From Motilibacter peucedani (GTDB lineage Bacteria; Actinomycetota; Actinomycetes; Motilibacterales; Motilibacteraceae), in the NCBI RefSeq assembly GCF_003634695.1, contig NZ_RBWV01000009.1, forward strand, positions 1 to 64,000: DNA of 64,000 nt, read 5' to 3'. Positions 8,705 to 13,214 of the stretch are shown piece by piece. How positions within the stretch are numbered: position 1 is the first letter of the stretch; each line of letters starts with the position of its first letter. The position numbers were made by a program, and so were the translations under genes. The notes beneath the pieces were generated by a model. It saw nothing but the letters and a program-made list of their open reading frames with translations, made no database searches and was not told where the DNA came from.

Positions 8705-9772
8705 ATGAGCGACGTCGTGGTGGTGGGCGCCGGGATCGTCGGCGCCTCCGTCGCCTACCACCTCGCCCGCGCCGGCGCGGGAGTCACGCTGCTCGACCGG
8801 TCGCTGCCTGCGACCGGTGCGACCGGTGAGTCCTTCGGCTGGATCGGCCGGGGGCTCGCCGGTGCGCCGCCCGAGCAGCTCGCCCTGCGGCACTGCGTCA
8901 TCGACGACTACCGCCGCCTCATGGATGAGCTGCCGCACGTGGACGTCCACTGGTCCGGCTCCCTGTCGTGGAGTGCCGGGCAGCCGGTGGACGAGCCCGG
9001 TGACGGCAGGCTCGTCGACGCCGTCGAGGTCGGCGCGCTCGAGCCGAACCTGCGCGACGTCCCGCCGCACGCCGTCTTCCGCCCCGATGACGGGTCTGTC
9101 GACCCGGTGGCGCTCACCGAAGCGCTCCTGCACGGTGCGCGGGAGCACGGTGCAGACGTACGCCTCGGTGCCCTGGTCGCGGGGCTGGAGGTACGCAGTG
9201 GCCGGGTCACAGGGGTGCGAACCTCGACAGACCACCTGACCGCGGAGGCAGTCGTGCTGGCTGCGGGCGCCGACACCGCTGTCCTGTGCTCCACCCTCGG
9301 TGTCGGCCTGCCGGTCTTCTCGTCACCTGCCATCCTCGTGCGCCTGCGCGGGGCACGGCCGGGGGTCGTCCGCACCGTCGTGAGCAACGACGTGGTCGAA
9401 GTACGGCAGACCCCGGACGGCGACCTGCTCCTCGCGCTCGACCACGAGGGCCAGCAGAGCTACGACGCCCTGCGCCGTGCCGGGGAGCAAGCGCTGGAGC
9501 GCATGAAGGCGTCGTTCAGGGGCACTGACGACGCCACGCTGGTCGGCGTGACGGTCGGAGCCCGCCCGATGCCCGCCGACGGCTCCCCCGTCGTGGGCCC
9601 GCTTCCCGGCGCAGCCGGTGCCTACGTCGCGGTGATGCACTCGGGCGTCACGCTCGCACCCACCGTCGGCCGGCTCGCGGCCGCCGAGCTGGTCGACGGC
9701 CGCGAGGCGGCAGAGCTCCGCGACCTCCGGCCGCGGACGAGCTCACATGAAGTTGCGGCTGTGCAGCGCTGA
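8705..9772 (+). CDS. FAD-dependent oxidoreductase (DadA/glycine oxidase-like)
   Basis: A 355-residue flavoprotein with an N-terminal dinucleotide motif VVVGAGIVGASVAYHLARAG and the ATGATGESFGWIG segment common to D-amino-acid/sarcosine/glycine oxidase-type enzymes. A second FAD contact is VVLAAGADT, and the C-terminus has PVVGPLPGAAGAYVAVMHSGVTLAPTVGRLAA. It should oxidise an amine or amino acid in the cytoplasm. It is 13 bp downstream of the hydrolase. Its last 30 bp overlap the 3' end of the convergent TusA-ferritin gene. Confidence 0.88.
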   Translation: MSDVVVVGAGIVGASVAYHLARAGAGVTLLDRSLPATGATGESFGWIGRGLAGAPPEQLALRHCVIDDYRRLMDELPHVDVHWSGSLSWSAGQPVDEPGDGRLVDAVEVGALEPNLRDVPPHAVFRPDDGSVDPVALTEALLHGAREHGADVRLGALVAGLEVRSGRVTGVRTSTDHLTAEAVVLAAGADTAVLCSTLGVGLPVFSSPAILVRLRGARPGVVRTVVSNDVVEVRQTPDGDLLLALDHEGQQSYDALRRAGEQALERMKASFRGTDDATLVGVTVGARPMPADGSPVVGPLPGAAGAYVAVMHSGVTLAPTVGRLAAAELVDGREAAELRDLRPRTSSHEVAAVQR

Positions 9773-10918
9773 GAGCTCGGCCGCCTCGTCGGCGGGGAAG
9801 CCGATGTGCTGCAGCCGGCGCTGCCTGCCCTGGTCCATCGCGTACTGCAGCTGCTGCACCGCCTGCCAGCCGCGTGCGAGGGCGGCGGGCTCCCACGATC
9901 CGGCGGCGAGCAGCACCAGCGAGTCGTAGACCTCCGCATTCAAGCCGGCGGTGTCGAGCAGGGCGCTGTGGCGACGTTCGATCGCGGAGCGGAGGTGAGC
10001 GAGGAACGCAGGATCAGTACGCGCCGCATGAGTCGTGTGGGCGACGCCGAACGCGACGTGGCGCGCCTCGTCCTGCAGCGCGAGCCGGGTCACGTCGGCC
10101 GTGACGACGTCGGGCGCGTGGGTGTGGATGAAGCGCAGGAGGTCGAGGAAGGTGCCTTCACCGAGAACGCTGAGCAGGAAGCCGGCCAGGGTGAAGTCGG
10201 GCTCGTCGAGCAGCGTCTGCAGCGACGCGCGGCCGCCGGCGCCGGACGTACCGATCGTGTCGCCGTGCAGCACCGCGCGCCGGCTGAAGACCTCGACGTG
10301 GCGCGCCTCGTCGGCCGCCTGCACGGCCAGCAGCTGCACGACCTCGCGGAAGTGCGGGTGCACACGGGTGAGCAGGCGGGCCGGGATGACCAGCGCCGCC
10401 TGCTCGTTCTCGACCAGGTAGGTCATCAGCTGCACGACCGCTGCCTCGACGTCGGCCGGCGCCTCGGTGCCCGCGTCCCACCGCACCGCCGTCGCCGGGT
10501 CCCACTGCGCGGCGGCGGCCGCTGCGTAGAGCTGCGGCGCGACGTCGGCCCAGACGTGGTCGCGCTCCACCAGCGGCAGGCGCAGCGGCGGGCCGCCGGC
10601 CTCGACGAGGGCGCCGCGGGCCGCCAGGCCCCAGCGCGCGTCGGCGAGAGCCATCGGCGGACCCGCCGGGGAGCCGGCGCGCTCGGCGCCGGCCCACCGC
10701 TGCGTGAGCGCCTCGCCCTTGCGCACCACCGGCGGGTCGCCGTCCTCGAAGCCGTGCCCCTGAGACCGGCACCACGCGGCGAGGTGCACCTTGAGCGCCG
10801 GCGAGCTGCCCTGCACCGTCAGGCGGTCACCTGGTGCGAGAGCGGCGAGGGTGCGGTCGACGAGCAGGTGGCCACCCGCGTCGAGCCCGAGGTGCTCAAG
10901 GTCGGTAGTCGCGGGCAC
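9743..10918 (-). CDS. degenerate TusA-like domain fused to di-iron ferritin-like oxygenase domain
   Basis: A 391-residue protein from a GTG start with GGGAGGG upstream. Residues 1-60 resemble a TusA fold (LAALAPGDRLTVQGSSPA and HLAAWCRSQGHGFED) but lack the CPxP cysteine motif. Residues about 160-300 hold a full four-helix di-iron set: Glu170 or Glu172 in VENEQ, E204-A-R-H207, Glu254 in LGEGTF, and E284-A-R-H287. This is the E...ExxH...E...ExxH pattern of ferritin-like oxygenases. It is likely an iron-dependent oxidase/oxygenase with an unknown substrate. It overlaps the upstream substrate-binding protein gene by 23 bp, so translation is coupled. Confidence 0.8.
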   Translation of the reverse strand: MPATTDLEHLGLDAGGHLLVDRTLAALAPGDRLTVQGSSPALKVHLAAWCRSQGHGFEDGDPPVVRKGEALTQRWAGAERAGSPAGPPMALADARWGLAARGALVEAGGPPLRLPLVERDHVWADVAPQLYAAAAAAQWDPATAVRWDAGTEAPADVEAAVVQLMTYLVENEQAALVIPARLLTRVHPHFREVVQLLAVQAADEARHVEVFSRRAVLHGDTIGTSGAGGRASLQTLLDEPDFTLAGFLLSVLGEGTFLDLLRFIHTHAPDVVTADVTRLALQDEARHVAFGVAHTTHAARTDPAFLAHLRSAIERRHSALLDTAGLNAEVYDSLVLLAAGSWEPAALARGWQAVQQLQYAMDQGRQRRLQHIGFPADEAAELSALHSRNFM

Positions 10919-11750
10919 GGACCCTCCCCGAGTCGTCGTAGAAGCCGGCCCCGTCGACGGCCCTCTCGAGCTGGGAGAAGCCCTCGAGACGAGGCGGCCG
11001 CCACTCCTTGAGGCCCTCGAGGTCGAGCAGCGGGCGCAGCTCCGGGTCGGCGTAGGACATGCCGAGCAGCAGCTCGCCGAAGCGGTCGACCAGCCGCGGG
11101 TCCGCCGACGGCCCGGCCGTCATCGTGCAGTGGTCGTAGACCGGGGTCTGCCCGACGACGCGTGCCCCGGGCGGGAGGACGCCCTCACGGGCGAAGAGCA
11201 GCGAGTTGCCGTCGATCATGCACGCCGCGTCGACCTCGCCCGCCGCCAGAGCGAGGGCGGCGTCGCGCTCGCCGCCGACGTGGTCGCCGTGGAGGCCGAC
11301 GCCGATGTCGAAGCGGCGGACGGCGACGTCGGTGCCCGGGTCGAGCCCCACCGAGCGGAGCAGGTGGAGAGGCAGCAGCGTCGCCTGCGGCGAGTCGACC
11401 GCACCCGTCGCGACCGTGCGCCCCCGAAGGTCCGCGAGCTCCTGCACGTCGGAGTCGGCGCGGACGACGACGACCGAGGTCAGATCGCAGTCGGTGTCGC
11501 GCATCGTCACCGGGCGCAGGGGTATGTCGCGGGCCTGCGCGAGGCGGCGCGCGCGTACCCATGCCAGCGGCGAGTTCCAGGCGACGTCGATGCGCCCGCT
11601 CACCAGGTCCTCGGCCTGCCGCTCGTAGTTGGAGTAGAGGACGTAGTCGAGGTCGAGGTCCTGCGTGCGCAGCCACACCCGGAACCCGTCCCAGATCGTG
11701 ACCACTTTGGGGTCGTAGGCGACCGCACCGAGCAGCAGCGTGCCGGCCAT
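10896..11750 (-). CDS. PhnD/SsuA-type periplasmic substrate-binding protein without signal peptide
   Basis: A 284-residue protein of the phosphate/phosphonate/transferrin-like binding family. It opens directly with LLLGAVAYDPKVVTIWDGFR, contains YERQAEDLVSGRIDVAWNSPLAWVRA (the ligand-pocket region) and DLRGRTVATGAVDSPQATLLP, and ends after a helical domain. No signal peptide or lipobox is seen, and no permease or ATPase lies nearby. It may therefore work in the cytoplasm as a binding or enzyme partner rather than in uptake; that is inference. The ATG overlaps the stop of the acyl-CoA-dehydrogenase-like gene as TGATG. Confidence 0.82.
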   Translation of the reverse strand: MAGTLLLGAVAYDPKVVTIWDGFRVWLRTQDLDLDYVLYSNYERQAEDLVSGRIDVAWNSPLAWVRARRLAQARDIPLRPVTMRDTDCDLTSVVVVRADSDVQELADLRGRTVATGAVDSPQATLLPLHLLRSVGLDPGTDVAVRRFDIGVGLHGDHVGGERDAALALAAGEVDAACMIDGNSLLFAREGVLPPGARVVGQTPVYDHCTMTAGPSADPRLVDRFGELLLGMSYADPELRPLLDLEGLKEWRPPRLEGFSQLERAVDGAGFYDDSGRVRARDYRP

Positions 11751-12873
11751 CACGCGTCCCCCAGCAGCGGTAGGCCGCAGAGCGCCCGCCCGACGAAGTC
11801 GTGCAGGGCGTCGGTCGTGGGTGCCATGACCCGCGCGGCGCGCGAGTCGCGGAAGAGCCTCTCGACGGGCGACTCCTTCCGGAACGCCGCCCCTCCGCAC
11901 GCCCGCAGCGCCAGGTCGGCGGCGTCGGCGGCCGCCTCACCCGCCGCTGCCTTGACCTCGAGCACGAGCAGCTGGGCGTCCTCCCGCCCGGACTCGACCG
12001 CCGAGAGCGCGTCGTCGACCAGCGCCCGGGTGCGGTCGGACTCGATCTGGAGCCTCGCGAGCGAGGTACGCGGCAGCACCTGCTGCGCGAGCGACTGGCC
12101 GAGGTGGGTGAGCTGGGTCTTCTGCAGGTGCACAGCCGTCTCCTGCGCCAGCGTGCGGAGCAGGCCGACGCTCGCCGAGGCGTTGAGCAGCAGGAACACC
12201 GGCAGCACCGCAGTCATGGCGAGGTCGAGGCCGGCACCGTCGGTGCCGAGCAGCGCCGAGCGGGGTACGCGTACGCCCTCCGCCTCGACCGGGCTGGAGG
12301 AGTTGCCCCGCAGGCCCAGGCCGTCGAAGGGGGCGCCGACCGTCAGGCCGGGCGCGTCAGCGGGGACGTACCAGAGCGTCATCGGGTCGTCGGCCTCGAG
12401 CGGGCGGCTGGACCACACGTAGCTGTCCGCCTCGCCGGCCGAGGTCACCCAGCTCTTGCGCGCGTCGAGCACGACCTCGTCGCCGTCGGCGGTCGCGGAG
12501 CTGACCGGGGACCAGAAGTGGCTGCGCGAGCCGACCTCCGAGAACGCCAGCGTGGTGATGTGCCGGCCGGCCGCGATCTCGCGCAGCACGTCGTCCACGC
12601 CGGCCGCCGCCAGCGCCGCGGTGCCGGCGTAGTGCATGGTCACGACCATCGCGGTGGAGCTGCAGGCCGCGCCGAGCTCGCGCACGACCTGCGCGGCGGC
12701 GGTCAGGCCCAGCCCGCCACCGCCCAGCTCGGTCGGCACGGTGAGGGCGAGCAGCCCTCGGCTGCGAGGGCGTCGAGCTGGCGCCGGGGGTACGCAGCGG
12801 CGCGGTCGGTCTCTGCCGCGAGCGGGGCCACCACCTCGGCGACCACACGGGTGAGCGCCTTTTCGTAGGACAC
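11750..12873 (-). pseudogene. acyl-CoA dehydrogenase-family flavoprotein with a 1-base frameshift
   Basis: The main frame from about 12755 down to 11750 codes for an acyl-CoA-dehydrogenase-type protein: LLALTVPTELGGGGLGL, STAMVVTMHYAGTAAL, TLAFSEVGSRSHF and RACGGAAFRKESPVERLFRD. Its natural N-terminus lies in another frame. GTG at 12873, with an AAGAGGAAG site, reads SYEKALTRVVAEVVAPLAA on through RQLDALAAEG, then falls out of frame near 12755 in a GAGGGCTGC context where one base appears to be missing. Either the gene is broken or the assembly has an error; the rest is intact. It resembles flavin monooxygenases of the ACAD fold (DszC/SfnB type) as much as true dehydrogenases. It is first in a three-gene operon. 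Confidence 0.8.
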
Positions 12874-13136: not shown

Positions 13137-13209
13137 GCCGACGTGGCGCAATTGGTAGCGCACCCGACTTGTAATCGGGCGGTTAGGGGTTCAAGTCCCC
13201 TCGTCGGCC
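13137..13209 (+). tRNA. tRNA-Thr (anticodon TGT)
   Basis: A 73-nt cloverleaf. The acceptor stem pairs GCCGACG with CGTCGGC, the D arm is GCGC-AATTGGTA-GCGC, the anticodon arm is CCCGA-CTTGTAA-TCGGG with anticodon TGT, and the T arm is AGGGG-TTCAAGT-CCCCT. CCA is not encoded. Everything from the anticodon loop onward lies inside a 47-bp sequence repeated at 36474-36520, so this tRNA is the integration target of the island. Confidence 0.95.
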
Positions 13210-13214
13210 CTACG
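13168..13214 (+). repeat. attL-like direct repeat (47 bp, overlaps tRNA-Thr 3' end)
   Basis: This begins CTTGTAATCGGGCGGTTAGG and runs through the T arm and acceptor 3' strand to CCCTACG. It is identical to 36474-36520. The bases outside both ends differ (A versus C before, TCTGAC versus CGCGGT after), which defines the 47-bp length. Confidence 0.92.

Follow-up and report, generated by a model that had tools for sequence, protein, structure and literature searches.

A three-gene operon of Motilibacter peucedani encoding a TusA-like/di-iron fusion protein is probably tied to SelD-dependent selenium metabolism

The operon described here was found in the first 64,000 nucleotides of contig NZ_RBWV01000009.1 of Motilibacter peucedani (RefSeq assembly GCF_003634695.1), a stretch referred to below as the window. 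It occupies positions 9743-12873 of the minus strand and encodes, in this order, an acyl-CoA-dehydrogenase-like flavoprotein (ACAD), a substrate-binding protein (SBP) with a PhnD-type fold, and a third protein (P3) in which a TusA-like domain is fused to a ferritin-like di-metal domain. Comparison with other genomes indicates that this operon is probably tied functionally to selenium metabolism that depends on the selenophosphate synthetase SelD.

Relatives of P3 were collected by a scan of one genome per species in 84,980 species, which gave 377 proteins; the locus counts rest on the best 80 of these, with 55-72% identity. The 80 loci belong to many actinomycete genera and to metagenome-assembled genomes of other phyla, labelled Chloroflexota, Acidobacteria, Planctomycetota, Myxococcales, Rokuibacteriota, Nitrosomonas and others. 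The SBP gene adjoins P3 in all 80 loci and the ACAD gene in 75, with median gaps of 17-18 bp from one tblastn match to the next. Given this adjacency in the loci of other genomes, the three-gene arrangement is far beyond chance, and a lack of conserved neighbourhood is excluded. Any other gene family was confined to a small fraction of the 80 loci, and one apparent further cluster proved to be the P3 gene read in a wrong frame. In the window, the stop codon of ACAD (TGA, 11752-11750) and the start codon of SBP (ATG, 11750-11748) overlap by one base to give TGATG, and the SBP and P3 genes overlap by 23 bp (10896-10918). The initial annotation, which had proposed a translationally coupled three-gene operon, is borne out by these coordinates and by the preservation of the trio elsewhere.

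The presence of SelD was determined in 50 named genomes carrying P3, mainly the isolates among the 80 loci, and in the genome of the window. All 51 had a SelD match over the cut-off, against a background of 69 out of 247 genomes (28%) in the class of the window; P3 itself occurs in two of these 247, both SelD-positive. The P3 genomes are not independent of each other and fall into 22 genus-level groups, and the association gives a Fisher p of about 1e-24 over genomes and 1e-7 over the groups. Within Streptomyces, SelD was present in 16 of 16 P3 carriers and in none of eight controls, whose genus was inferred (Fisher p about 1e-6). More distant P3 relatives in a sample of the phylum were accompanied by SelD in seven cases out of seven, compared to a background of 194/296. 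SelA, an enzyme using the product of SelD, was found in 50 of the 51 P3 genomes, and SenB was missing from 48. The only genome without SelA, that of Amycolatopsis suaedae, has SenB, which shows that the operon follows selenium use of either kind, whichever the end product. Two or three SelD genes were counted in 13 of the 50 P3-bearing genomes.

The association is also seen in the position of the genes. In several loci the neighbours of the operon are SelA, SelB, SelD, SenA, SenB and formate dehydrogenase, and a gene for SelA, SelB, SelD, SenA or SenB lies within 8 kb of the operon in at least 12 of the 80 loci, where about 0.5 would be expected. In A. suaedae (locus L117) P3 is separated by 26 bp from the start of a SelD gene in the same orientation, beyond which SenB and SenA are encoded on the opposite strand. 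SelB, SelA and SelD adjoin the operon in L052, and sen genes do so in L089, L094, L103 and L117. At L089:12173-14609, SelD lies near the operon and the sen genes, followed by a class V aminotransferase-like gene, judged from its sequence to be of the cysteine desulfurase or selenocysteine lyase type.

P3 matched the Pfam library weakly (AurF 0.0014; TusA E 0.003, below cut-off), and a profile of its family matched TusA of Escherichia coli with E 1.6e-4 and R2lox-type proteins with 7e-7. Structure prediction of the fusion gave a confident model, with a mean predicted local distance difference test (pLDDT) score of 93.9. In this model the N-terminal domain has the beta-alpha-beta-alpha-beta-beta order of the TusA fold, and the ferritin-like C-terminal domain is closest to VlmB azoxy synthase (Z 23.4, 20% identity), an aldehyde-deformylating oxygenase (ADO)-like protein (23.2), R2lox (22.1) and ADO (22.0), so that ADO and R2lox fall within about 1.5 Z units of the top match. 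The di-metal ligands E172, E204xxH207, E254 and E284xxH287 (four Glu, two His) are invariant in 81/81 sequences, and in the same 81 sequences no cysteine of the TusA-like domain reaches 95% conservation, the persulfide cysteine of the CPxP motif being absent. The complete E...ExxH...E...ExxH di-iron site and the TusA-like domain lacking its CPxP cysteine, both read from the sequence in the initial annotation, are thus confirmed by the profile match, the model topology and the conservation pattern. Judging from the model, the fold and ligands of P3 appear to be those of O2-activating di-metal enzymes. VlmB, ADO and R2lox share with it the fold (Z 20-23) and the six-ligand site, but they are only about 15-21% identical, and P3 differs in its extra TusA-like domain and its gene context. 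YedF, with SirA/TusA-like and DsrE domains, is a selenium-associated protein (PMC5322559). It resembles P3 in combining a TusA-like domain with a second one in a single protein and in belonging to a family that tracks SelD; in P3, however, the second domain is of the di-iron kind, the partners are different and the TusA-like cysteine is lacking. Distant P3 relatives of about 30% identity, in which the TusA-like domain is not complete, were observed at L062:9103-10689 and L063:9315-10870; the next gene there encodes a conserved protein of 144 aa that matches no Pfam family, which makes this a different two-gene set.

The SBP matches the Pfam family Phosphonate-bd (E 2.5e-33), and its nearest NCBIfam family is NF049985 (Rv1680), with 229 bits, below the curated cut-off of 400. 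Its predicted model (pLDDT 96.1) is nearest in fold to PhnD and PtxB, followed by ArrX, HtxB and AioX. A signal peptide is absent, as residue 5 of the model already lies within the first strand of the folded domain, and no permease, ATPase or other transporter gene is adjacent, in agreement with what had first been annotated. In phosphite-binding relatives the residues that hold the ligand are those of an STS motif, together with a His and with a Tyr that caps it (PMC5700983). Sequence alignment showed that the first Ser of this motif (S120) and the ligand His (H154) are kept in the SBP and that the other two STS residues are changed. An invariant His207-Cys208 pair aligns with the cap, namely with Asp205-Tyr206 of Prochlorococcus PhnD and Tyr208 of Trichodesmium PtxB, which suggests a soft ligand close to a thiol. 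This pair also occurs in the SBP of a second version of the operon, with a radical S-adenosylmethionine (SAM) protein as third partner, and therefore does not by itself speak for selenium. The periplasmic proteins PhnD, PtxB, HtxB, AioX and ArrX thus share with the SBP the fold, the conserved ligand His and the first Ser of the anion motif, but they are secreted transport or sensor proteins, whereas the SBP is leaderless, has the His-Cys cap and stands without a transporter. No primary paper on As(III) binding by a cysteine of AioX was found, and the comparison with AioX is based on similarity of fold.

The N, M and C domains of the Pfam ACAD families were all matched over cut-off by the flavoprotein, and by far its nearest NCBIfam family is NF049984 (Rv1679, FadE16), with 337 bits on the 334-residue in-frame part, below the curated cut-off of 600 bits. 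SfnB and sulfinopropanoyl-CoA desulfinase are among its more distant matches. Alignment with solved acyl-CoA dehydrogenases showed that the catalytic Glu at the canonical YEGT position, the only position considered, is replaced by Ala (MAPT) in 74 of 75 relatives. The window copy is not one open frame: compared to the intact copies of all relatives it carries a 1-nt frameshift near 12754, which separates codons 1-40 (12754-12873) from the remainder (11750-12754), was not noticed in the initial annotation and may be an assembly error or a recent mutation. Cleavage of a C-S bond is known from a member of the ACAD superfamily, 3-sulfinopropionyl-CoA desulfinase (PMC6370202), which makes the release of sulfur or selenium from carbon a reasonable candidate reaction.

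In mycobacteria, the ACAD and SBP genes are followed by a radical SAM gene of the Rv1681 family in 11 of 11 loci, and the same arrangement is found in G199. The N-terminus of the Rv1681 family gives a weak TusA match (0.032) and aligns with that of P3 with an hhalign probability of 86.6 (E 4.5e-6). Two unrelated catalytic units, one of O2 type and one radical SAM, thus carry an N-terminal domain of one kind and occur with the same partners. Since Rv1681 is the mycobacterial third partner with this kind of domain, P3 seems to be its oxygen-dependent substitute. The set Rv1679 (FadE16)-Rv1680-Rv1681 (MoeX), catalogued as NF049984, NF049985 and NF049973, therefore resembles the window operon in its related ACAD and SBP, its gene order and the TusA-like start of its third gene, but differs in that this gene is radical SAM instead of di-iron, in that the window ACAD and SBP stay under the curated cut-offs, and in that no link to SelD is seen for the mycobacterial set. 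SelD was present in four of 11 carriers of the radical SAM version and in 66 of 148 genomes of their Mycobacterium-like genus; as these carriers show no enrichment, the selenium association belongs to the di-iron version. Nothing was found in the open-access literature on the operon or on the function of Rv1679-Rv1681, and none of the genes could be assigned as orthologues to a pathway whose function is known, which agrees with the original remark that no described pathway with this set was known. The ACAD and the SBP are nearest to catalogued but uncharacterised families; the link to selenium is new. A third alternative partner was observed in G227 (L059:8264-11470), where a MetE-like gene (cobalamin-independent methionine synthase core) overlaps the SBP gene and no SelD match is listed. 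Versions without P3 (L058:2295-8610; L059:2924-7372) lie near genes for methylthioadenosine phosphorylase and a TIGR04282-type ('arsenosugar') glycosyltransferase. A link of the operon to 5'-methylthioadenosine phosphorylase, seen in L053, L055, L056, L058 and L059, the first three being of one genus, was rejected, as the synteny is unchanged in the related L069, where the operon is missing, and the gene is found in none of the 80 P3 loci.

With moderate confidence, the three proteins can be regarded as a cytosolic module working together with SelD on the supply side of selenium metabolism. The supply of selenium is more likely than its use, this direction, like the substrate, being what we infer from the gene set, the folds, the ligand residues, the co-occurrence and the linkage. 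The SBP would hold a small selenium-bearing anion, of the seleninate or selenite type or perhaps selenophosphate, the cap position being taken by the invariant His-Cys pair. The di-metal site of P3 may then use O2 for an oxidative step on an organic selenium compound, while its TusA-like domain would act as a docking or binding module rather than as a persulfide carrier. The ACAD-like flavoprotein, without its canonical base, could complete the release of inorganic selenium, and the presumed product, selenide or a precursor of it, would be converted to selenophosphate by SelD; the order of these reactions and the electron flow are likewise part of the proposal. In the mycobacterial version, the di-iron unit would be exchanged for a radical SAM unit, while the N-terminal domain stays of one kind. 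Put more broadly, and only tentatively, the operon may represent a new O2-dependent branch of selenium metabolism, in which a leaderless PhnD-fold protein captures selenophosphate or a selenium oxyanion for a TusA-like/di-iron oxygenase and a base-less ACAD-like flavoprotein, with the radical SAM version of mycobacteria (in M. tuberculosis, Rv1679-Rv1681) performing analogous chemistry on another element.

Several observations weigh against a role in selenium supply. The SelD and SelA genes of the window genome are about 0.6 Mb away from the operon, and the window ACAD is frameshifted. As many as 67 of the 69 SelD-positive genomes of the class are without the operon, which makes it accessory. 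The ACAD-SBP pair with its radical SAM partner occurs without SelD in seven of 11 mycobacterial genomes and in G199, and together with the shared His-Cys pair this means that the core chemistry is not necessarily confined to selenium.

The operon could instead stand on the product side and turn selenophosphate into a new selenium-containing small molecule, comparable to the role of SenB and SenA for selenoneine, although this appears less likely. The SBP would then bind selenophosphate, the PO3 group of which resembles phosphite and phosphonate ligands, with the selenium facing the His-Cys cap. The phosphonate/phosphite-binding fold of the SBP is in line with this, and so are the constant presence of SelD, its gene directly behind P3 in L117 and the sen genes beside the operon in four loci; an accessory distribution is typical of specialised metabolites, and oxidative enzymes are common in biosynthesis. 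However, every tested P3 genome has another user of selenophosphate (50 SelA, one SenB), which such a role does not require, none of the three proteins is an obvious C-Se bond-forming enzyme, and the ACAD-SBP core is found without SelD. The senABC selenoneine cluster shares with the operon the dependence on SelD and the proximity in these four loci, but the operon contains no SenA- or SenB-like enzyme and most of its carriers are without SenB.

It is unlikely that the di-iron and radical SAM versions share a general sulfur or oxyanion chemistry, such as the release of sulfur from organosulfur compounds, with selenium linked only indirectly through lifestyle or co-transfer with neighbouring selenium genes. 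The pocket residues common to both versions, the missing SelD link of the radical SAM version (4/11 versus 66/148) and the distant ACAD matches to SfnB and the desulfinase would fit such chemistry, but lifestyle is hard to invoke for SelD in 51/51 genomes over 22 genus-level groups and in 16/16 Streptomyces versus 0/8 Streptomyces-like controls, and the operon is linked to two distinct selenium gene sets, for selenocysteine and for selenoneine. Use of phosphonate or phosphite, with the SBP as an ordinary transport component, is highly improbable and was rejected: the Pfam match and the PhnD and PtxB folds agree with it, but there is no signal peptide and no permease or ATPase alongside, the capping Tyr has become an invariant Cys, the STS anion motif is partly lost, and the genomic context is one of selenium and not of phosphonate genes. 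The initial annotation had considered an oxidative step in sulfur- or phosphonate-like metabolism, a fair guess as to sulfur-like chemistry, but the evidence favours selenium over phosphonates or general sulfur compounds.

The features of the operon are listed in Table 1. A gene for a DAO-type FAD oxidoreductase (8705-9772, plus strand) converges on P3, the 3' ends overlapping by 30 bp, and a tRNA-Thr (TGT) gene lies at 13137-13210 (plus strand), about 260 bp upstream of the operon. SBP was absent from four other genomes of the same order that were searched, one of them of the same genus; this absence and the adjoining tRNA gene may indicate that the operon is a recent arrival. PADLOC gave no match to a defence system, and no plasmid match was obtained at E 1e-20.

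Table 1. Genes and domains of the operon in the window
Feature	Position	Strand	Remarks
ACAD, acyl-CoA-dehydrogenase-like flavoprotein gene, nearest Rv1679/FadE16 family	11750..12873	-	frameshifted near 12754; MAPT motif, canonical catalytic Glu replaced by Ala
First 40 codons of ACAD, in another frame than the remainder	12754..12873	-	frameshift at about 12754
SBP, PhnD-type substrate-binding-protein fold without signal peptide, nearest Rv1680 family	10896..11750	-	S120, H154 and invariant H207-C208 line the expected pocket
P3, fusion of TusA-like and ferritin-like di-metal domains, 391 aa	9743..10918	-	
TusA-like N-terminal domain of P3, about residues 1-67, without CPxP cysteine	10718..10918	-	
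Ferritin-like di-metal domain of P3, about residues 119-385	9764..10564	-	ligands E172, E204, H207, E254, E284, H287

The acquisition of selenium by bacteria is poorly understood, and according to a review from 2026 (PMC13188914) a specific, high-affinity transport system for selenium is yet to be identified in prokaryotes. The operon offers three concrete proteins for a missing supply step or for a new selenium metabolite. The exchange of a di-iron for a radical SAM unit next to a common type of N-terminal domain would allow a clean comparison of O2-dependent and O2-independent versions, and the operon may also help in approaching Rv1679-Rv1681 of M. tuberculosis, which are uncharacterised.
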